Shown one piece after another: positions 600 to 59,479 of a DNA stretch of 64,000 bases. Below the pieces are notes generated by a model. It did not search any database, had not been told where the DNA came from, and worked only from the letters and a program-made list of their open reading frames with translations. Position 1 is the first letter of the stretch. The number at the start of each line of letters is the position of its first letter. A program made the position numbers and the translations under genes. The DNA is taken from positions 48,807,920-48,871,919 of the forward strand of contig OY282606.1 of assembly GCA_958298945.1 (NCBI GenBank), read 5' to 3'. Origin of the DNA: Atherix ibis (lineage: Eukaryota; Arthropoda; Insecta; Diptera; Athericidae).

Positions 600-880
600 T
601 GGACATTGCAGATACTTGGATGTTCTACCTTGACAACGCCTCTCTATTTGTTGTAGCAAAAAAGGATTCGTGTGGTTCCCCAGCCTTCCTATTCATCTGG
701 TCTAAGTCTATGTGACTTTTTCTGTACCCCAAGATTAAAAAACGTCATCTAGGTAATGTTGATAATATCCAAAAGGTGTGTAACCGAGGACCTGAAGACG
801 ATATCAGTTGAAGTCTTCCAGCAATCGCTTAGATATTCCACCATGACAACCCCCCTGGCACACAGCCATTAATTAGTTAA
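600..880 (+). pseudogene. Degenerate mariner transposase fragment
   Basis: Conceptual translation across several frames gives scraps of the catalytic half of a mariner transposase. There is a DNAS block around 630, then a degraded PYSxxLSLCDFF block around 690-720 (normally YSPDLAPCDFF), a C-terminal stretch resembling LKTISVEVFQQSL around 790-830, and a second HHDNPPGT block near 836. The second HHDN block lies downstream of the CDFF block, so the relic is rearranged or two relics are joined. It resembles the fragment at 22905-23330 in this window. No terminal inverted repeats were found. It cannot encode a working enzyme. Confidence 0.55.
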
Positions 881-1599
881 AATAAATCAAAAGTTTTATT
901 AAAAAGGAAATTCCTACAGACCAATAAATATCCATTCCTGAAAGGAAAAATTTGTTGAAGCATTGTTGATCTGTAGGATTCCAGTACAGGACCGCTTACA
1001 TACCCTACTTGAAACCGCAAAATTCTTTTCCAACCATAATTCGGTTTTCGTTGCGATCATTCCACTACCCAGCAATATCATGGAGTCGTCGATTTCATTG
1101 CATGCTCTTTAAAAATCAAATAGTATTGTCCCGGTGTATTTTAAGCAATAAATTAAGCGCCTAATTGAGTTTCGCATCCGGGTTTACTATAAAAACTCAG
1201 GAAAATCCTTTTCTCTACACAAAAGCGGATACTAAAATCATTTTTTAAACTGGCACTTCCAAGTTAATGAGTACTATTAACTCTCAAGTAGCTCTCCGAT
1301 ATAGCTCTCCGCTAATACAATCTATCCAACTCCTTCTTTTCTACATGTATAAAAAATCTTGCAATAATGTTATTCATCATAATTTTAAAGTCCCCTCAAA
1401 CTTGATGTTACAGAGTTTCATTACAAAAAATTTCATTCTTGTCTTTCGAATCATACAAATCCCCTTGTTTGAGAGCAATCCTCCACTTCCCTGCTTAGAA
1501 TTATCCATCGAAAACTTAAACGCCATACTGGATGGGTAATATATTAAAATACTGGATCTTAGCTTCGCTGATCATTACTTTGCTTTTTTATTAGAACAC
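881..1599. other. No clear feature
   Basis: AT-rich. A 90-codon open frame at 1267-1539 shows no recognisable domain. It may be decayed LINE sequence, because a LINE 3' relic follows directly, but this cannot be shown. Confidence 0.3.
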
Positions 1600-1830
1600 T
1601 CCACAATCCAATAATGTTCGTTGTATGTTCGTAACAACATTAGTTATAGTGACTTAAATCTCGTCCCTTTGTTCATAACTTATGTGTTTTTGGTAGTAAA
1701 AAAATGCATTCCGATTATTCTCTTGTTAGAAAACTCTCCTGCGTTACTTTTCCCATAAACACTCATCGGCATTTAAAGAGAAATTGTCTAAGATATTCCT
1801 TTATAAATTTGCTTTTATGTATAAATATCT
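1600..1830 (+). mobile_element. Jockey-like LINE 3'-end relic
   Basis: The stretch reads FYVRN-like, then SYSDLNLVPLF, then a block with CATCGGCATTTAAAGAGA. It matches, in the same order, the 3' part of the LINE copy at 25950-26130, where the blocks are FYVRNTVIHRDLNVPFVHDL and CATCGGAGACTTAAGAGA. Only the extreme C-terminal coding end remains and it is out of frame. An A-rich run near 1840 may be the old tail. Confidence 0.55.
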
Positions 1831-3911
1831 GCAAAATTTAAAAAAAAACGTATATCTCCGATGAGAGCTTAATGACAAATGCTTATTCTTAAAGAGTTTT
1901 TATTGCCAAATTATGGAATAGTTTCAAATTTTCATCGCCTGATTTTAAGGCCGCCAGTGTAAGAATGGAAAGATATCACTGAATGACTATCTCTCTCATT
2001 CGCTAGTCTAATACTGATAAAGGTACCACCTAGCGATCCGCCCTTAGGCATATGTCAGCTTATCATCGCAATGATGGCCAGTGGCTAACAGGGGGCAATA
2101 GTATGTATCCGACAGAGGATATTAGATGCGAATCATATTGCAAATGCAATTCATAATGACCTCCTATGAAGAACGGGGTACATATGACAAAAATCCTAAC
2201 AGGGCTTTGGGGGTGCAATACCCAAAATTTTAATAGGTTTTCCATAAGAAACTTGAACGGAAGATCGTTCTGAAATCAGAGAAATCTGTTTCAAAAGCGT
2301 ACTCTGTATAAGGGGCTACCCAAGCTTCGGAATGGGCCCTGATAATTGGCATAGACTTCAAGATGGATGTGGGGTTTAGTAGTTAGGGTTGCAGCCAAAG
2401 GTTGCATGCTCTCCAATAATCTCCATCGGTTTTTTTAATTTTAATCCACTATTACATGATGTAGAAGATGCCACCTAGCGATCAGTTGAGGCACACTATG
2501 CATATTTGATGGACGAACGATCGATCGCATTCTAAACTCAAGAATGAGCACGGCTTATTCATTTCTTCTTAATTTTATAGAATATTATTTTTATAAAATT
2601 TTTAAACGCTTACAAAATATTTAAAAAAAAAAATACATGAAAAAATATTTCTGAAAATTCGAACAACCAAAATTTTATTTAAAAGAAAAATTGGAATACT
2701 AACCAAAAATCGTAGAACATTTTGCAAGTGTCATCTAGAGAGTAACGCTGTCATTTTGATTAAATTTTTATTCTTTTCTTCAAACAATTGAAAAAAAAAA
2801 AACAATATTAAAGTGAATACAGAATTGAGTAAGGAAACGGAATAGAGATATACGATTGTATGTATGCAGATTGAGGAAGGTAAATTAAAGACAATGGCCG
2901 AAAAAAACCAATACTTAATTGTCTTGTTCGATCAAATTATTCATTTTTGATTTATATTATTTATTTTATACACATACATACCTACCTATTGAATGCACGC
3001 ACATGAAGATATATAAAATGATCGTTTATGAATATTTTAAGAGAATACGAATACACGTAAATTTGCACACGAAAAAATGTTTACTCATTATAATATCAGA
3101 AAACTACTACTCACAATATTGAATGATCTCTTTTCAAGTCCATTTTCATTATACACCACCTTCTGCATATGTGTACTGGTGTGTGTGTGTGTGGCCATAT
3201 TTAAATTTTCGAATGTGAACATTTTTTTTTTTGGTTTTTTTCTCTGTTACATTATCATTTATACACGTACATATGGGATTGGACTATTTCAAACTCCTTT
3301 TATTGATTGTATGAATGAATGTATGTGTTTGTAAACATAAATAGATATGTATACGTATATTTATATAGAGTAAAATTTTGAATGTGTATTGAACTATTTA
3401 TCAAAATTTATTTGTAGGCATGCGGTTTTGTTTACTTTTCGAATTTTATTATGAATTAAATTAACAAAAGAAAAAGAAAATACAGATTGCAAAAATTCTC
3501 TTTTTTCTTAATAAATATTCTCTTCCAAATTCTCTTCTAGGGCAGTTAACGAAGAGATGTATTTATTAAGAGACATAAAGTATAGAAATGGTGAAAATAT
3601 ATCATAAAAATTAAAATGAATTAATTTTTTTTAGAGAAATTTTGTGATTAATCGTAACAAAATTTAAAAAAATTAATAAAATTAAATTAAATTGAAAATA
3701 ATTGAATGTAGACTGTACCCACTCGTACATTGTCGTAGGCCTTCTTATCATCTTAGGCTGAGAGGCTGACGACAATAGTAGATAACATGCACTGTCATAC
3801 GTGCAAATACATAATACTGATAACAGAATATGTGGTGTATAAGAAAGGCAAATGATCTTCGAAAAATTTTACCATCTATCTCTATTTTGCCCTTTCCTTA
3901 ATCTATTACTA
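1831..3911. other. AT-rich non-coding stretch with GT microsatellite
   Basis: No gene seen. Around 2015-2480 the sequence is less AT-rich and the phrase CCACCTAGCGATC occurs near 2026 and again near 2470, which may mark the ends of an old unidentified repeat. A short (GT)n run lies at about 3179-3192. The open frames between 2919 and 3334 are low-complexity. Confidence 0.35.
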
Positions 3912-24599: not shown

Positions 24600-26245
24600 T
24601 AGGCTCTGCCGACAAATCGTTTTCAGCTGTGACCCCAAATAGGAAAATAATTTAACTCTTTCGAAAACATTTGGTAAATATTTTTGCTCCACATGATGAT
24701 ATAGAAGACGAATCGCATACTAACAAAATCATCGAAGAACTCATGTTCCCACTCCCTATGAGTCTTCCTTCCAAAAATTTTAAGCCATCGGAAATTAAAT
24801 CTACAATTCTGAGTCTTCCCAATAAAAAAGCTCCTGGTTATGATCTAATAACAGCTCCTATTCTCAAGAAAAATTCCCCGAAAAGCTTTAGTTTTAATTG
24901 CACATATTTTTAATAGTATCCTGCGTACAACCTATTTTCCCTTACTCTGGAAATATTCTGTCATAAAAATGATTCCTAAACCAAATAAACCCATTAATTC
25001 TCCTTTCTCCTATAGACCTATCAGCCTCTTACCAATTCTTGATAAGATATTCGAGAAACTCCTATTAAAACGACTCTATCCAGTTCTAGTTAATGAAAAA
25101 ATTATTCCTGATCACCAATTTGGCTTCCGGTTTGAACACTCTACTATCCAGCAATGCCATCGCATTGTTGATCATATTGCATCCTCTCTTGAGAGGAAAG
25201 AGTATTGCCCAGGAGTATTTCTAGATATTTCCCAAGCTTTTGATCGTGTGTGGCATCCTGGACTCCTTTGGAAACTCAAGAGCTTTCTTCCTTCAACATA
25301 CTACCTTATCATAAAGTCATATCTCTCCCAACGATATTTCCAAGTTGTAATTAACTCAGAATCCTTGGAAATATATCCTATTCTAGCCGGAGTCCCACAA
25401 GGTAGTATCCTTGGTCCCATCTTATATAATATTTATACTCATGACATCCCAGCTTATCCGAATACTATCATTGCTACTTATGCAGACGATACGGCCATAC
25501 TTGCTACCCATTCAAATCCTGTAATAGCTTCCAACAATTTACAATCCCATATCCACAACCTTCAATCCTGGTTTAAGAGATGGAGAGTGAAGGTAAATGG
25601 ACAGAAGAATGCTCACATTACTTTCACACTTTGTCAAGGTAAACCTACCCATTTATACCTTAATACCAACATGATACCGCAATATGATAAAGTGCGATAT
25701 TTGGGACTTTACCTGGACAAGAGACTAACATGGAACCCACATATACGTATGTTACTACGTGTAGATTAAAAAGAGCTGAAGCTAACAGACGTTACCTACA
25801 ACTTCTTAGACTACTGGACAAACGCTCGAAACTATCAATTAAAAGTAAACATCTTATTTACAATACAATTATAAAATTTTAGGGTTCAACGAAACGTTCC
25901 AATTCCTATCGCGCCCAGGCCTTACAATCCAAGATCCTCCGTAAAATTGTTGATGCTCGCTTTTATGTTCGTAACACTGTAATACATCGTGACCTAAATG
26001 TTCCCTTTGTTCATGACCTGTGCATTTTCCGATAACAAAAATTTCACTCCTGTTTACCCTATCCGTTTACCCCGGAAACACTCATCGGAGACTTAAGAGA
26101 CAATGGCCTAGAGATTTTCTAGAGGAATCTAACTTCCGTTAGTTGGAGAAACGCCGATGGGTGTTTACTCCCACTTCATGATGCACAAGATTGTTAATTA
26201 AAATGTTATGTAAATCTGCTTGTTACAATAAAATTGTAGTTGCAG
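24600..26245 (+). pseudogene. Jockey-like LINE, reverse transcriptase part
   Basis: This is the second-ORF reverse transcriptase of a Jockey-type non-LTR retrotransposon, which copies its RNA at a nicked target. Order: a lead-in with FAPHDDIEDESH, IKSTILSLPNKKAPGYD (24780-24850), a frameshift near 24880-24960, then 24969-25769 in one frame with IPKPNKP, YRPISLLP, FLDISQAFDRVWH (catalytic Asp), GVPQGSILGPILYN and YADD. After another frameshift near 25750 come the C-terminal block LLRLLDKRSKLSIKSK and the HRDLNVPFVHDL end near 25990-26020. The endonuclease domain is missing, as in a 5'-truncated insertion. A-rich sequence at 26249-26270 is the likely tail. Confidence 0.88.
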
Positions 26246-49040: not shown

Positions 49041-50867
49041 TTAAATCAAGTCCCATGAATTAAGTGAATTTTGTGAACATAAGTCCAATATGATCGCTGC
49101 ACCAATTGTAACGGTGGGCGCACGGAGGCAAGTGCCGGTTGCTACGTTATAAATTGGAGAACCTTTTGATGAAATATGTCGCCATTCCTGATCGCTCAAC
49201 ATTTCATGGCACTTTCCCAGTACGGGCACTCCGTTACGCTCAGAGTGTGCTGCCTCAAGGCAATATAATTTGTCCAGGATTATTTCGGACTTATCGGTTT
49301 CATACCACATTTGACTTTTGACGCGCAAGCATGAGCGTAATGACAAGCGGCTTCCGCGCTTCCACATGCGATTTTCCTTAGTGCCGTCAGCCGATATGCA
49401 AAGAGTCGAATTGGTTAACCGAATCATGAAGTTGTTCACGTACTTGCGTTTGCGCGAATGCCATGGTTGGAAAACTGGTTGAACTGCTTTCAGTATGTTC
49501 TTCTCTAATTGTCCTGGAATCTCTAGTTCAGGGTAAATTTTTTCTAAATACCATGAGAACGTCTTGCACTGCAGTCTTTTCCTTAGTTCCAGCCTTTCTT
49601 GTATGTCACCGAAACTGAAGTTCTTTTCCAACTTCTGATTATCTACATAATATTGCTTGTACTCATCCATCCAGACATACGCCAGACGCAGTGAATTGCG
49701 CAGCATTGTGTTGACTCCATCCGGAGATGTGTATGGCCTTCTCTTACGAAACACATGCCCAACTCGGGAGCATGGAATTATTTTTATGGCACCACCGCAT
49801 TGCCAGACACGAAAAGAAATCTCGAGATTTTCACCGCCCCAAATGTCCATTCCCATGTCGTATTCACCAATTTCTTTAAAGTATTTCCTATCAATTCCAA
49901 ATAGTCCTCCTGCCATTGTCGGAGAAAGGAATGGGCCAGCGAACGACGACTCATTGATAAGTGTACCTTCTGGTAGATTTTCCCACTGAAAGTGGAGGCC
50001 CCAATTGAAACCGCCACGCACTAATGGACTGGAGGTGTACGCAAAGGTATCCGCGTTGATTATGTCAATAACGGGCACGGCAAGGGATGAATTTTCAATT
50101 TTTACAATTTGCAAAAGTGGCTCCAACCACTGAGTATTGACTTCAATGTGACTATCCAAAAAGACGAGTACATCCGCAGTAGCATGCCTAGAACCTATCA
50201 CTCTTGATCGAATCAAGCCCTCGCGCTTCTGATTGCGTAATAGTTTGACTTTTCTGTCAGGATCTATTAGTGAGATTTTCTCCAAGACAATCGCTTCACC
50301 CAGATCCTCGAAATCACTAAAATCATCCACCAAGATAATCTCTTTTAGAAGTTCTGGCGGAGAACGTCGCAGAACGGATTTTATCGAACGCAGCAGGGTC
50401 ACAAGGTGTTCATTGAAAAAGCACATTATAATCGAAGCTGATGGCAAATTGGAGTCATAATGTTGTTGCAAGCATACCTTGTGCCTGGTATCTGGTAGTT
50501 CTCTGTCCAATCCAATATTGTTGCTCACAAGCGTATTATAGGCATGGCGTTTGTAGCCTATATCTCGGATGTATTGGTCGTACGGATTATGTATCATTCC
50601 GACTTCTTCAAATTTGAAAACTGGTTTGGTGCCCTTTCCATTGCTATTACCAAACGCTGAAGATGCGCTAGGAATGTTTGGTGCCCTAATTTGATGAATA
50701 TCGCGGAATGTGCTCTCCACTTTCACTTTCTTTTCAGATATTGTCTCTTTGGTCGGGGCGTATTTTATTGGATTACTCACTAAATTCACATATAAATAGA
50801 ATGTTATAATCCATGTCAACGATGCTACCAGAATTCCCCAGCAAAACTGTTTCTCGAAAAGTCCCAT
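49041..50867 (-). CDS. Polypeptide N-acetylgalactosaminyltransferase, GALNT11/Pgant35A type
   Basis: This is a Golgi type II membrane enzyme that transfers GalNAc from UDP-GalNAc to Ser/Thr of target proteins and so starts mucin-type O-glycans. The 608 residues lie in one uninterrupted exon. A short cytosolic start is followed by a membrane anchor at about 10-30 and a stem to about 85. The catalytic domain has PSASIIMCFFNE near 142-153, ILVDDFSD at 178-185, the metal-binding DSH at 238-240 (FLDSHIEVN), SPTMAGGLFGIDR at 315-327, the Gal/GalNAc-transferase box WGGENLEISFRVW at 343-355 and GHVFRKRRPY at 370-379. A ricin-type lectin domain (about 478-608) follows, with QMW and QEW in QxW positions; the last repeat has NSW instead. 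The start MGLFEKQF resembles the GALNT11 start, and as I recall human GALNT11 is also 608 residues. It is the only convincing host gene in the window. Confidence 0.95.
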   Translation of the reverse strand: MGLFEKQFCWGILVASLTWIITFYLYVNLVSNPIKYAPTKETISEKKVKVESTFRDIHQIRAPNIPSASSAFGNSNGKGTKPVFKFEEVGMIHNPYDQYIRDIGYKRHAYNTLVSNNIGLDRELPDTRHKVCLQQHYDSNLPSASIIMCFFNEHLVTLLRSIKSVLRRSPPELLKEIILVDDFSDFEDLGEAIVLEKISLIDPDRKVKLLRNQKREGLIRSRVIGSRHATADVLVFLDSHIEVNTQWLEPLLQIVKIENSSLAVPVIDIINADTFAYTSSPLVRGGFNWGLHFQWENLPEGTLINESSFAGPFLSPTMAGGLFGIDRKYFKEIGEYDMGMDIWGGENLEISFRVWQCGGAIKIIPCSRVGHVFRKRRPYTSPDGVNTMLRNSLRLAYVWMDEYKQYYVDNQKLEKNFSFGDIQERLELRKRLQCKTFSWYLEKIYPELEIPGQLEKNILKAVQPVFQPWHSRKRKYVNNFMIRLTNSTLCISADGTKENRMWKRGSRLSLRSCLRVKSQMWYETDKSEIILDKLYCLEAAHSERNGVPVLGKCHEMLSDQEWRHISSKGSPIYNVATGTCLRAPTVTIGAAIILDLCSQNSLNSWDLI

Positions 50868-55747: not shown

Positions 55748-55759
55748 TTTTTGGCTCTT
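55748..55759. repeat. Target-site duplication, LINE 3' side
   Basis: TTTTTGGCTCTT at this position is repeated at 59077-59088 on the other side of the LINE. The last two T's merge with the poly-A tail (poly-T on plus), so the sure part is 10 bp. Confidence 0.9.
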
Positions 55760-55835
55760 TTTTTTTTTTTTTTTTTTTTTTATTTGACAGGTTTTTATTT
55801 CTATGTTACACATAGACATGAGAACACAGTCACTC

Positions 55836-58799
55836 CTATGGAGCATATAGCGGCACTAGAGCCTCTGTGAACTCTCTCCATCTGCTTCTGTCTTGAGCCA
55901 GCCTTTTTACTTCCGACCATGATTTGCCAGTTTGTTGGTGTTCGCGCTCGACTGATCTTCTCCAAGTGGTCCTTGGACGTCCTCTGCTGCGATTGCCCTG
56001 TGGGTTCCAATCTAGTGCCATCCTTGCTATGTCCGTAGGTGGTTTTCGCAAGGTGTGGCCAATCCAACTCCATTTCCTGCGTTTGATGTTATCTAGCAGG
56101 GGTATTTGCTTCGTGAGAAGTAACAGCTCATCGTTCGTTATCCAGTTTGGCCAGAAGATCTTGCTTATACGCCTCAAGCATCTGTTCACAAATGCCTGAG
56201 GCTTACGAGTCGTGCTCTCTGTTACTTTCCATGTTTCGCAGCCATACAGCAGGACTGGCTTGACGTTTGAGTTGAATATTCGAAGTTTGAGTGCTATGGA
56301 GAGATGATTGGAACGCCATACGTTCCCAAGTGAGGTGTACGCTTGTCGCGCCTTGTTGATGCGCGTTTGGATGTCTATTTCAGTTCCACCATCCTTGCTG
56401 AGCATGCTGCCAAGGTAACAGAACTTTTCGACATCTTCAACTTGGGTACCGTGTAGCATCAAGGGTCTCTCGCAGGTGGCGCCGACACGTATCAATTTGG
56501 TCTTCTTGATGTTGATTCTCATCCCAACTTTTTCTGCGTTGGAGGCCAGTGCATTCAGTTTCTCCTGAATGCCGTTGAAGGTGTGGGACATGAGGCATAT
56601 GTCGTCGGCGTAGTCCAGGTCGTGGAGCTTCTCACGCAGTGTCCACTGTATACCGTTGCTGGCTGTGCTGTTAGTGCGTTGAAGAACTAGGTCTAGGGCG
56701 ATTATGAAGAGGATAGGCGAGATTATGCAACCCTGCCTGACTCCTCTCGAGATGTTGAATGTATCGCTGTTTCGTCCTTTGAGACGCACTCTACACGGGG
56801 CCTCGCGGTATAGTTCTCGGATTAGATCGATTATGGCCTGCGGGATGCCTAGTTCAGCCAGAGCACTCCAGATGGCGTCGCGAGAAATCATGTCGAAGGC
56901 TCTTTCGAAGTCAACGAAGAGAAGATAGAGCGGGCTGTTCCATTCGTTCGACTGTTTAATGATCATTCTTAGGCTGTTGATGTGATCAATACAGGAGCGG
57001 TTTGGTCTAAAGCCAGACTGCTCGTTGCGGAGGGCACTTTCCACTGTTGGAGTGATGCGAGTCAGGATGATTGATGCGATTAGTTTCTGGATGGTGTTCA
57101 GCAGCGTGATTCCCCTCCAATTTTTGCAATCGCCAAGGTCACCTTTCTTCGGGATGGTGATAATTACTCCTTCTTTCCAGCTGTCCGGGAAGTGGCATTG
57201 TGTCCAGGCTTTTACGATTATAGGATGCAACAGCGAGGCCAGGAGTGGCGGGTCAAACTTCAGAACTTCTGGGGCCAGGTTGTCAGGTCCGGGTGCTTTG
57301 CTGTTCTTAAGCTTGTTGATTGCTGTTGTGATCTCCGTAATCGTAGGTGGTGTTGTTGGGACGGATCTTCGTGGGTTTCTGCGCATCACTGTAGGAGGAG
57401 GATGGAATTCTGGAGCTATTGGAAGTGATTCTGAGAAGAATTCCTTCCAGCGGTCGAGTTGTTCTTCATCCGTGGGGAGAGTTTGACCGTCTTTGTCCTT
57501 AAGTGGTGGCAGTGAGGGTGTTATTTTTCCGGATAGTTTGCGAATTGATGCATAGACACTGCGGATATCGCTCCGGTGTGCAGCGGCTTCTGCTTCGCTC
57601 GCTATTTCGTTGAAGTAGTTCCTCTTGTCGTCCCTTGCCATGCGTTTGACCATCTTTTGAGCAAGGTCGTACCTCGTCTGTAGATGGTGCCTTTTCTCGC
57701 GAGTTTGAGCAGTTTGGAGTAGACCTTTCAGCTTTCTTCGTTTTCCTTTTTGAGTCCAGGTTGACTCGCGGATCCACTCTTTCCTCTTATAGTTCCGAAA
57801 GCCCGTTGCTTCCTCTGCAGCGGACTTTAGTTTGCGCATTAGAGAAGGCCATGTCAGCCTTTCGGCATTGTGGCTAACTTCTTCCAGCTTGTTCGCAAAT
57901 ATCTCGGCTGTCTCTGGATTCTGCAGGCGTTGGATGTCATGCCTGCGTTCTGCGCGATCTTGTTGTTTCTTAGTTGCCACAGGCCTTAGTCTGACCACCC
58001 CAAGTAACAGCTGATGGTCGCTGTATATGTCAGCTCCTCGGATTGTCTTGACGTCCAGGAGCGATCCGAGGAATTTTTTGCTTATTAGGATGTGGTCTAT
58101 CTGGTTGCGGGTCACGCGATCCGGAGACTGCCAGGTGTATTTGTGGATGTTCTTGTGAGGAAACTTGGTTCCACCGATGAATAGTTGATGAGTTGAGCAG
58201 AGGTCAGTGAGACGGTTCCCGTTGTCATTTCCCTCTGTATGAAGGCTGTGTGTTCCAATGATCGAGCGAAGATCAGTGTTGTCCCGGCCTATTTTAGCGT
58301 TAAAATCGCTCATTACAATTTTGATGTCGCTCTTCGGGGCAGATTGAATGCACGTCTCTAATTGGTGGTAGAAGGCTTCTTTATTGGCGTCATCATCTAC
58401 TTCAGTTGGGGCATAGCATTGCACGATGGTGATGTTTCGGAACTTCGAGTGGAACCTGGCTGTCAGAAGGCGGTCGGAGACCGGTTTGGAGCCCATGAGA
58501 GATCTCTTTGCGTTGGCTGATAGGATTAATCCGACTCCGCAGTGGTGTCCACTGTCGTTGCCGCTGTAGATGAAGTGTTCACCCGTCTGCGTTGCGAGGA
58601 TTCCTTGATGTTTCCACCTTGTTTCGGAGATTCCCAGTATGTCGAGATTGTAGCGTCGCATTTCGGAAGTAGCTTGCGCCAGACGAGAAGTTTGGGAGAG
58701 AGTTCGCACGTTCCAGGTACCTATTCGGGTTGTTCGGTGAAAGCCAAATGTCGTTTTGCCTGAGGTGTTGTCCGGTTGATTACTCTTGTGCTGTTTCAT
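55836..58799 (-). CDS. LINE endonuclease/reverse transcriptase, intact
   Basis: The 987-residue protein nicks the target DNA and reverse-transcribes the element RNA there. The N-terminal endonuclease/exonuclease/phosphatase fold has TWNVRTL (about 28-34), the catalytic glutamate E59 in GISETRW, CYAPTE (128-133), SDFNAK (164-169) and SDH (260-262). A basic linker follows (about 330-400). The reverse transcriptase has KAPGPD (501-506), IPKKGD (549-554), GFRPNRSC (596-603), FVDFERAFD (628-636, Asp 630), GVRQGCIISP (686-695) and YADD (730-733). The C-terminal part has YGCETW and a WIGHTLRK block typical of RTE-like proteins. No stop or frameshift occurs and all catalytic residues are present, so it could be active. 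Proteins of this type are often mislabelled craniofacial development protein 2-like in automatic annotation. The ATG at 58799 is 277 bases from the element's 5' end. Confidence 0.93.
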   Translation of the reverse strand: MKQHKSNQPDNTSGKTTFGFHRTTRIGTWNVRTLSQTSRLAQATSEMRRYNLDILGISETRWKHQGILATQTGEHFIYSGNDSGHHCGVGLILSANAKRSLMGSKPVSDRLLTARFHSKFRNITIVQCYAPTEVDDDANKEAFYHQLETCIQSAPKSDIKIVMSDFNAKIGRDNTDLRSIIGTHSLHTEGNDNGNRLTDLCSTHQLFIGGTKFPHKNIHKYTWQSPDRVTRNQIDHILISKKFLGSLLDVKTIRGADIYSDHQLLLGVVRLRPVATKKQQDRAERRHDIQRLQNPETAEIFANKLEEVSHNAERLTWPSLMRKLKSAAEEATGFRNYKRKEWIRESTWTQKGKRRKLKGLLQTAQTREKRHHLQTRYDLAQKMVKRMARDDKRNYFNEIASEAEAAAHRSDIRSVYASIRKLSGKITPSLPPLKDKDGQTLPTDEEQLDRWKEFFSESLPIAPEFHPPPTVMRRNPRRSVPTTPPTITEITTAINKLKNSKAPGPDNLAPEVLKFDPPLLASLLHPIIVKAWTQCHFPDSWKEGVIITIPKKGDLGDCKNWRGITLLNTIQKLIASIILTRITPTVESALRNEQSGFRPNRSCIDHINSLRMIIKQSNEWNSPLYLLFVDFERAFDMISRDAIWSALAELGIPQAIIDLIRELYREAPCRVRLKGRNSDTFNISRGVRQGCIISPILFIIALDLVLQRTNSTASNGIQWTLREKLHDLDYADDICLMSHTFNGIQEKLNALASNAEKVGMRINIKKTKLIRVGATCERPLMLHGTQVEDVEKFCYLGSMLSKDGGTEIDIQTRINKARQAYTSLGNVWRSNHLSIALKLRIFNSNVKPVLLYGCETWKVTESTTRKPQAFVNRCLRRISKIFWPNWITNDELLLLTKQIPLLDNIKRRKWSWIGHTLRKPPTDIARMALDWNPQGNRSRGRPRTTWRRSVEREHQQTGKSWSEVKRLAQDRSRWREFTEALVPLYAP

Positions 58800-58937
58800 G
58801 ATAAGATGTTTTTCTTATGGCTTGCGGCTTATCAGGCCAGCGAAGCAACCCCCAGTGACGTTGGGGGACCCTACGGACTACATATGTAAGGCTTGTAGTC
58901 GGCCTCTCACCCCGGCACCAATGCCGAGATGGCGGCA

Positions 58938-58954
58938 GCGGGAATCGAACCCGC
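58938..58954 (-). promoter_or_regulatory. tRNA T-arm-like hairpin with B-box sequence
   Basis: The minus strand reads GCGGGTTCGATTCCCGC: a 5-bp stem closing the 7-base loop TTCGATT, exactly the form of a tRNA T-arm. It contains GGTTCGATTCC, a perfect RNA polymerase III B-box consensus. It is followed by TGCCGCCA, which looks like the 3' acceptor strand of a tRNA with CCA. No D-arm, anticodon arm or A-box was found upstream; the 5S-like segment stands there instead. Confidence 0.75.
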
Positions 58955-58962
58955 TAACCTAC

Positions 58963-59075
58963 CTGCGACACGCGGTTTTCCAAGTGGTCACCCATCCGAG
59001 TACTAACCACGCCCAGTCCTGCTTAACTTCGGTGATCTGACGAGAACCGGTGGATCCAGGATGGCACGGTCGCAG
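58963..59075 (-). ncRNA. 5S rRNA-like segment forming the LINE's 5' end
   Basis: The 113 bases align end to end with insect 5S rRNA from about position 3 to 118. They contain GGTTCTCGTC, AGATCACCGA, GTTAAGCAG, GTGGTTAGTACT, GGATGGGTGACC and ACCGCGTG. The internal control region of 5S genes (A block, intermediate element, C block) is therefore represented. The terminal helix pairs perfectly over seven bases (CTGCGAC with GTCGCAG) although it differs from the Drosophila sequence on both strands. Helix II (TCCTG with CAGGA), helix III (CGGT with ACCG) and helix V (CGTGGTT with AACCGCG, one G-U) also pair. The segment begins one base inside the target-site duplication, so it belongs to the element. 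It is not a host 5S gene. Confidence 0.85.
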
Positions 59076-59076
59076 A

Positions 59077-59088
59077 TTTTTGGCTCTT
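59077..59088. repeat. Target-site duplication, LINE 5' side
   Basis: TTTTTGGCTCTT directly follows the 5S-like segment (one A between) and equals 55748-55759. Confidence 0.9.
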
Positions 59089-59104: not shown

Positions 59105-59164
59105 GTTCGTGGTACTACATAATGGCCTCTGATTGTTGTTTCAGAGACCTTACAACAAACAAAC
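59105..59164 (-). repeat. Dispersed repeat R, copy 4 (partial)
   Basis: The minus strand reads TTGTAAGGTCTCTGAAAC, then CAGAGGCCATTATGTAG and TACCACGAAC, matching the first third of copy 2. The LINE is inserted in its neighbourhood; a second CTACATAATGG lies on the other side of the LINE at about 55736. Confidence 0.6.
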
Positions 59165-59479
59165 AAATTTCATAAAATACTCGATGTTCTATAAAATTGT
59201 TTAATTTTGCCTAAAACATTGTTAAAAAATACATTTTAAATAATATCCATTTGATAATAAAAAAGGAATGTGCTTCGGTTTTTTTTTGGATCAACAACCA
59301 GAATATTGAGCAGGCTTTTTGAATACAAGGAACATTAATTCTAGAATAATGTGCAGGCTTTTTGAACACAAGAAACAGTAACAGGACATAAGATACGAGT
59401 AGGCATCTATTAATTCTTCTTTAAATCATGAGATTTACTCGAATTTTAATTTCTTAAGCTTAGAAAATCACGTGTTTAT
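59165..59479. other. AT-rich spacer
   Basis: A near-repeat of GTGCAGGCTTTTTGAACACAAGAA-type sequence occurs twice (about 59310-59335 and 59350-59374). Nothing else seen. Confidence 0.35.

Follow-up and report, generated by a model that had tools for sequence, protein, structure and literature searches.

A coding LINE of the fly Atherix ibis carries 5S rRNA-derived and tRNA-like heads that may act as replaceable Pol III-type promoter modules

LINEs are held to be transcribed by Pol II and SINEs by Pol III (PMC10886601, accessible text). SINEs of the SINE3 type and other 5S-derived SINEs, exemplified by PxSE4/5 (accessible text of PMC8010984) and SINE3-1_TC (accessible text of PMC3272025), bear a 5S head with A, IE, and C boxes at the extreme 5' end of a retroposon, as does the element described here. 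In contrast to this element, a coding LINE with a 987-aa ORF, SINE3-type SINEs are short, non-coding, and in need of a partner LINE. HaSE3 likewise joins 5S to a tRNA-derived element; its origin has been ascribed to a template switch that led from SINE RNA onto 5S rRNA (PMC3272025, in the portion available). A 5S head is tabulated for AmnSINE1 (PMC3747384, in the portion available). Unlike the fly LINE, neither of the two is autonomous. The AmnSINE1 head is a 5S/tRNA chimera. A series that leads from such a joint through loss of the A box to a T-arm within one genome is not described in the available portions of these sources.

Mouse L1 resembles the fly element in being an autonomous LINE that swaps its promoter module. 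The promoters exchanged in mouse L1 are Pol II promoters, whereas the old and the new modules of the fly LINE are both of Pol III types. For mouse L1, 11 replacements of the 5'UTR have been estimated, with strand switching as one proposed route (PMC3600994, accessible text). Captured small-RNA promoters are also present in the TRIMs Cassandra and Ajax, with 5S in their LTRs, and in Helenus, with a tRNA; these, however, are non-autonomous LTR elements in which 5S lies within the LTR (accessible text of PMC10886601). Finally, 5S/L1 and U6/L1 chimeras place small RNAs at the 5' end of a LINE, but as individual insertions with a typically truncated and antisense 5S, whereas the fly 5S is near full-length, in sense orientation, and family-founding (PMC13174262, accessible text).

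In the open PubMed Central literature searched, as far as its text was accessible, no autonomous LINE headed by 5S or tRNA is described. The separate parts are already known from SINEs, TRIMs, and L1, and their combination on an autonomous LINE is absent from the papers searched. A coding LINE with successive Pol III-type 5' modules blurs the divide between Pol II-driven LINEs and Pol III-driven SINEs, and its surviving intermediates show a route from a small cellular RNA to a retroelement promoter. Moreover, the system makes testable both Pol III synthesis of a translated retrotransposon mRNA and the replacement of old heads by template-switched ones. If the reading proposed below is true, the LINE would be a rare self-sufficient mobile element that runs on the kind of promoter usual for its short parasites.

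A full-length LINE copy and its family

The window, as we call the whole stretch of 64,000 nt of A. ibis DNA analyzed here, contains on its minus strand one full-length copy of the LINE with the following features.

55761..59076, minus strand: full-length LINE copy of lineage I, 3316 nt including the poly-A
59077..59088, minus strand: 5' copy of the target-site duplication (TSD), AAGAGCCAAAAA on the minus strand, 12 nt
58961..59076, minus strand: 5S rRNA-derived head, 116 nt, corresponding to 5S nt 2–118 with one base deleted, ~91% identity to host 5S
59014..59028, minus strand: position of 5S box A (5S nt 50–64), same as host in the alignment to host 5S
59006..59011, minus strand: intermediate element of the 5S promoter by position (nt 67–72), same as host in the alignment
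58982..58998, minus strand: position of 5S box C (nt 80–97), core GATGGGTGACC retained, both ends altered
58937..58955, minus strand: tRNA T-arm with B box, a perfect AGCGGG-TTCGATT-CCCGCT that starts five bases past the 5S head
58800..58936, minus strand: 5' UTR of 137 nt, common to four head types
55836..58799, minus strand: ORF of 987 aa with endonuclease (aa 27–262), reverse transcriptase (549–797), and DUF6451 (820–852)
58302..58305, minus strand: sole T4 run on the sense strand (element nt 772–775); T5 absent
55761..55835, minus strand: short 3' UTR that contains AATAAA twice and includes the poly-A tail
55748..55759, minus strand: 3' copy of the TSD, after the poly-A tail, with which its border is ambiguous

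The limits of box A, the intermediate element, and box C are the textbook ones. The LINE starts at 59076 directly adjacent to AAGAGCCAAAAA, and the identical 12 nt recur past the poly-A tail. Rfam 5S_rRNA (RF00001) matches at 59077–58960(−) over the entire model (1–120) with 103.6 bits (E 1.4e-22). Together with the TSD outside the head and the endonuclease and reverse transcriptase in the 987-aa ORF, this match bears out the claim of an earlier note on this DNA that a 5S-like sequence heads a coding LINE. The perfect T-arm with a B box, which the same note had placed behind the 5S, is confirmed at 58955–58937(−); ARAGORN called no tRNA in the window.

Endonuclease and reverse transcriptase reside in one ORF (Pfam Exo_endo_phos, E 3e-9; RVT_1, E 4e-37), and the protein matches the structure chains of L1 ORF2 and R2. 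An A-rich 3' tail, TSDs of variable length, and the absence of LTRs further identify the element as a LINE, perhaps an RTE-like one. It is a recent autonomous non-LTR retrotransposon that probably retains its competence. Among the protein matches listed, the best relatives are P0015 (63% identity, with 72% of the query covered) and P0001 (55%, with nearly all of it covered), and no relative outside the fly's own genome was found among the viral contigs searched. In three relatives of ~51–55% identity (P0001, P0004, and P0009), an N-terminal extension resembles by eye the translated end of the LINE 5'UTR, part of which may therefore be conserved or even coding. Among the genome contigs searched, a single one (L051), filed under a proteobacterial MAG, encodes a relative of 32% identity and most likely represents animal DNA in the bin.

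Two imperfect copies of a CCATTATGTAGTA...TTTTTTTT... stretch, recognized by eye, flank the LINE at 59123–59077 and 55748–55700; the LINE may thus have inserted into an older element or into tandem repeats that have diverged. Further upstream in the 5' flank (59300–59381), two 39-nt copies, 87% alike, start 43 nt apart. The window also holds a second, distantly related reverse transcriptase fragment (24933–25721, plus strand; 24% identity by tblastn) and a polypeptide N-acetylgalactosaminyltransferase 35A-like (GalNAc-T) gene with a single open frame of 608 aa (49041–50867, minus strand). The best-scoring named relative of the latter is from Condylostylus longicornis (65% over 89%), and the next ones belong to further Diptera.

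The 5S head is a property of a multicopy autonomous LINE, as the earlier note had supposed. The first 30 nt of the LINE have 106 exact matches in the 670-Mb genome, compared to none for a reversed control pattern, and all 40 copies scored in a DNA search (the best 40 of 1334 candidates) are 98–100% identical to the 381-nt 5' end. In 37 of these 40 the match starts at query position 1–6, the element itself starting at query position 5. Twenty further copies were picked by similarity to the 381-nt 5' end and, being chosen in this way, are all headed. With the window copy counted in, 17 of the 21 copies have their TSD no more than one base away from the head; a script identified 16 of these, including a weak TSD of 6 nt, and L042 was added separately. 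The extra base between TSD and head is an A, equal to 5S nt 1, in three copies and a G in two. The TSD borders and this pattern indicate that the element starts at 5S nt 1–2, in agreement with the note's expectation that full-length copies begin at the 5S start.

Thirteen of the 20 further copies align as a single full-length piece with 97.4–98.7% identity. An internal stop is absent in 27 of the best 45 protein-search matches, at least four of these 27 being 5'-truncated. Full-length coding was seen in lineage I; in type III, defined below, coding was seen in one copy as far as element nt 1158, with frameshifts. A common start of the 5'-truncated copies L085–L087 near the TTTT at nt 772 was dismissed as a ranking artefact, since the near-equal length of these bottom three rows of a score-ranked list is forced.

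Four head types before one 5' UTR

The exact 24-nt T-arm sequence occurs at 364 genome sites, far more than there are exact heads. We typed the first 100 listed, all on C1, by eye: 25 follow an exact head at the expected spacing, 71 were fetched and read, and four are lineage I copies already identified. Only sites with an intact T-arm enter this sample, which is less biased than copies picked by similarity. It comprises 42 heads of type I, 43 of type II (a count that takes in one inverted 5S, one rearranged, and one truncated), ten of type III, two of type INT, and three untyped (L102, L112, and L118). A motif of the LINE UTR follows within 60 nt of the T-arm in 64 of 70 loci, some loci ending 10 nt past the T-arm.

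In type I, to which the window copy belongs, the 5S is fused straight to the T-arm and the rest of the tRNA is absent. Type II consists of the 5S, TTTAACC, a GT-rich linker where the A box was, an anticodon arm, and the T-arm. Type III is without 5S and displays a tRNA-like head with the A box TGGTGCAGTGG, a hairpin that by eye resembles an anticodon arm, and the T-arm. Copies of the LINE lacking 5S, which the earlier note had named as an outcome against its reading, thus exist, but they bear a tRNA-like head. The A box TGGTGCAGTGG is intact in seven of the ten type III loci and changed in three, and the A-box stretch has 103 genome sites at ≤1 mismatch, INT copies counted in. Three type III heads (L090, L106, and L107) are not called by ARAGORN, which found a tRNA in none of the seven loci run, and score below threshold for the Rfam tRNA model; a near-identical INT segment passes RF00005. 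The interval C1:78539757–78610211 contains four type III A-box matches in the same orientation, of which three recur at an exact spacing of 5699 bp, possibly a tandem array of tRNA-headed copies.

Type INT combines the 5S via the link TCTGCCGT with a complete tRNA head containing A and B boxes. Its joint is found at 17 genome sites at ≤3 mismatches, compared to none in the control. Reading covered 12 of the 17 (ten fetched loci, L135, and L152), all of which are arranged as 5S, TCTGCCGT, and tRNA, with one base differing in L152, L169, and L170. These 12 copies have differing 5' truncations, and their A box is intact throughout. Among the ten fetched loci, Rfam accepts the tRNA in seven and the 5S in seven; adjacent 5S and tRNA, both above the Rfam gathering score, are present in L152, L162, L163, L164, L166, and L167. 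A chimeric 5S/tRNA head is therefore found in INT, while the window copy has a T-arm remnant only. Immediately upstream of the 5S, the flanks of L162 and L166, which lie on separate contigs, are almost alike; the two copies may share a larger duplicated unit and may be non-independent.

Judged by the complete heads of III and INT, the T-arm of the window copy is probably the fossil of an older tRNA head to which the 5S was added later, a relation that the earlier note overlooked. In a tree of T-arm and UTR (30 rows, INT left out, midpoint-rooted, outgroup absent), type I falls on one side of a branch (99/95), as does type II (93/96, just below the tool's star). Type III needs two changes, and L102, broken off in the anticodon arm, is sister to type I. 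INT and III have a longer TA repeat of the UTR in common (by eye). The simplest reading of these sequences is the order III, then INT, then II and I, which we infer, the tree being midpoint-rooted without an outgroup. C10T, which is present in INT and II but not in I (I has C), conflicts with this simple order, and a single origin would need a reversal or a polymorphic ancestor.

Host 5S genes and the origin of the heads

In the host, the 5S genes are arranged in tandem at C1:111.42–111.53 Mb, mostly in units of 655 bp. Of 47 scored matches, 46 reach 114.1 bits, and the 20 loci fetched are identical in sequence. They carry CTGCG/CGCAG in helix I and TCCTG/CAGGA in helix II, as does the window head, in which G8A is the sole helix I difference from host 5S. 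The earlier note had interpreted these helix letters as compensating changes relative to Drosophila 5S that suggest a selected RNA fold. This argument fails because the letters belong to the host's own 5S genes (20 of 20 loci identical).

The INT 5S consensus departs from the host by C10T alone, in three of the four copies covering that base, with up to five changes in individual copies. Lineage II has C10T, A11G, A13G, A81G, and T111C, and older lineage I has G8A, A11G, A13G, G16A, C40A, T80C, A81G, and C102A; three derived bases (11, 13, and 81) are common to both. All ten changes fixed in the heads preserve pairing when placed on the Rfam structure (0.67 for a random change, P 0.018; by lineage, P 0.14 in II and P 0.05 in I), a result to be read as suggestive, since three changes are common to I and II and possibly stem from one 5S variant. 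Pair 8-111 is G.U in the host, A-U in I, and G-C in II. Taken as a whole, this pairing test is weakly positive.

At the sequence level a type 1 promoter layout, with A box, intermediate element, and C box in 5S spacing, is present: 5S nt 46–78 are unaltered in the majority sequences of I and II, and box C is partly altered. The earlier note is thus borne out in that Pol III-type boxes are present in the head. Within lineages, the promoter boxes are not better conserved than the rest of the head (box C 4.4% versus 1.5% variation in II; 2.8% each in older I), and the youngest heads carry box C changes, which speaks against the promoter reading. All 20 host genes fetched end in GCAGG followed by eight T, whereas of 57 matched joints in LINE heads 54 retain one to three T, with four T in two joints and five in a single one. 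With five T at most, the heads are without the eight-T terminator of a functional 5S rRNA gene.

The INT joint is positioned at the 5S 3' end inside the terminator run, as template switching predicts. We consider it rather probable that the 5' end of the LINE constitutes an exchangeable promoter module of the Pol III type and that the 5S was added to a tRNA-headed LINE by template switching. INT would have arisen when the reverse transcriptase, on reaching the 5' end of a tRNA-headed LINE RNA, continued on the 3' end of a 5S rRNA, a switch that would leave behind most of the 5S terminator T-run. The internal 5S promoter with its A, IE, and C boxes would then fix the transcription start at 5S +1, and the tRNA A box would turn dispensable and disappear, with the B box being retained. 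Full-length copies after the arrival of the 5S start at the 5S, and in II and I the A box is missing and the B box kept. Less certain is the further step, in which Pol III would produce the full-length LINE RNA, later to be polyadenylated and translated.

One non-autonomous derivative, ~830 nt long, has a single internal junction that joins element nt ~739 to 3216; it occurs under I heads (L041, L042, and L047) as well as II heads (L092 and L099). One junction under both heads suggests head exchange by template switching within the family.

Pol III or Pol II for the full-length RNA

In favor of Pol III, the tRNA and 5S heads have no visible sequence or fold in common, just internal Pol III promoter types, and the eight-T host terminator is cut down in the LINE heads. 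Over 3295 nt, the sense strand of the LINE contains one T4, no T5, and one TVTTT. Equal synonymous codon use would lead to 7.7 T4 (P 0.001) and 6.3 TVTTT (P 0.006) in the ORF, with A4 runs at a normal level (15 versus 17.3 expected). If its own codon usage is retained, the scarcity is non-significant (T4, P 0.07–0.08; TVTTT, P 0.16) and A4 runs show a comparable deficit (P 0.04), so that composition or a general avoidance of runs may account for it. The depletion of T5 alone is non-significant in both codon tests (P 0.46 and 0.17). The neighboring GalNAc-T ORF has 9 T4 in 1827 nt. Against Pol III, the TTTT at ~nt 772 is present in all 14 full-length copies of lineage I, and all eight lineage II loci examined have a conserved TTTT ~209 nt past the T-arm. 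In HeLa cells, TTTT terminated 65% of B2 transcripts and a fifth T nearly all of them, and for a tRNA gene a figure of ~95% is quoted (accessible text of PMC8466645). The same paper describes how Pol III SINE RNA is polyadenylated in an AAUAAA-dependent manner, and hence the LINE 3' end is compatible with either polymerase. AATAAA and poly-A suit Pol II as well, and an mRNA made by Pol III, being uncapped, would be expected to translate poorly.

Taken from sequence features, we see an even chance that Pol III drives the full-length LINE RNA. Equally balanced is the wider reading that a coding LINE is transcribed by Pol III and has passed from a type 2 (tRNA) via a tandem dual to a type 1 (5S) promoter with the old B box, in combination with a near terminator-free coding strand.

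Alternatively, Pol II could transcribe the LINE, and the captured 5S and tRNA heads could serve the RNA through a stable 5' fold, binding of uL18/uL5 or the ribosome, or easier second-strand synthesis, which we regard as unlikely. The preserved 5S pairing, including the passage of 8-111 from G.U to A-U or G-C, is consistent with such a role, as are AATAAA and poly-A at the 3' end and the tolerance of TTTT runs. However, the tRNA and 5S heads differ in fold, with the internal Pol III promoter as their common feature, and the A box, intact in all 12 INT heads, is lost in II. Moreover, three of the ten pairing changes perhaps trace to one 5S variant, and a Pol II origin requires an unseen promoter that starts by coincidence at 5S +1. 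It is more doubtful still that Pol III acts mainly on short derivatives, with full-length RNA stemming from rare readthrough or outside promoters and heads returning to the LINE by template switching. The nt ~739/3216 junction under both II and I heads argues in this direction, as does an internal deletion in five of six partly read III/INT bodies (L090, L106, L107, L135, and L146; not L108), but lineage I has many full-length copies that begin at the head, often with open frames, as the 27 stop-free matches among the best 45 indicate, and the sense strand has its single T4 and no T5.

Compared to these possibilities, we give little credence to a ready-made capture of the heads from a 5S or tRNA SINE of the fly instead of from cellular 5S RNA. 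Chimeric 5S-tRNA SINEs of insects are known, e.g., HaSE3 (accessible text of PMC3272025), yet no body other than the LINE, with its UTR motif near the T-arm in 64 of 70 loci, was seen behind the T-arm, and an INT consensus that differs from host 5S at base 10 only fits direct capture of host 5S. Single 5S/L1 chimeras known from mammals (accessible text of PMC13174262) would be the precedent for a one-off chimera, or for a LINE inserted into a 5S pseudogene. This origin retains practically no probability and is ruled out by TSDs that lie outside the 5S and by the 106 exact heads, which are dispersed in the genome.
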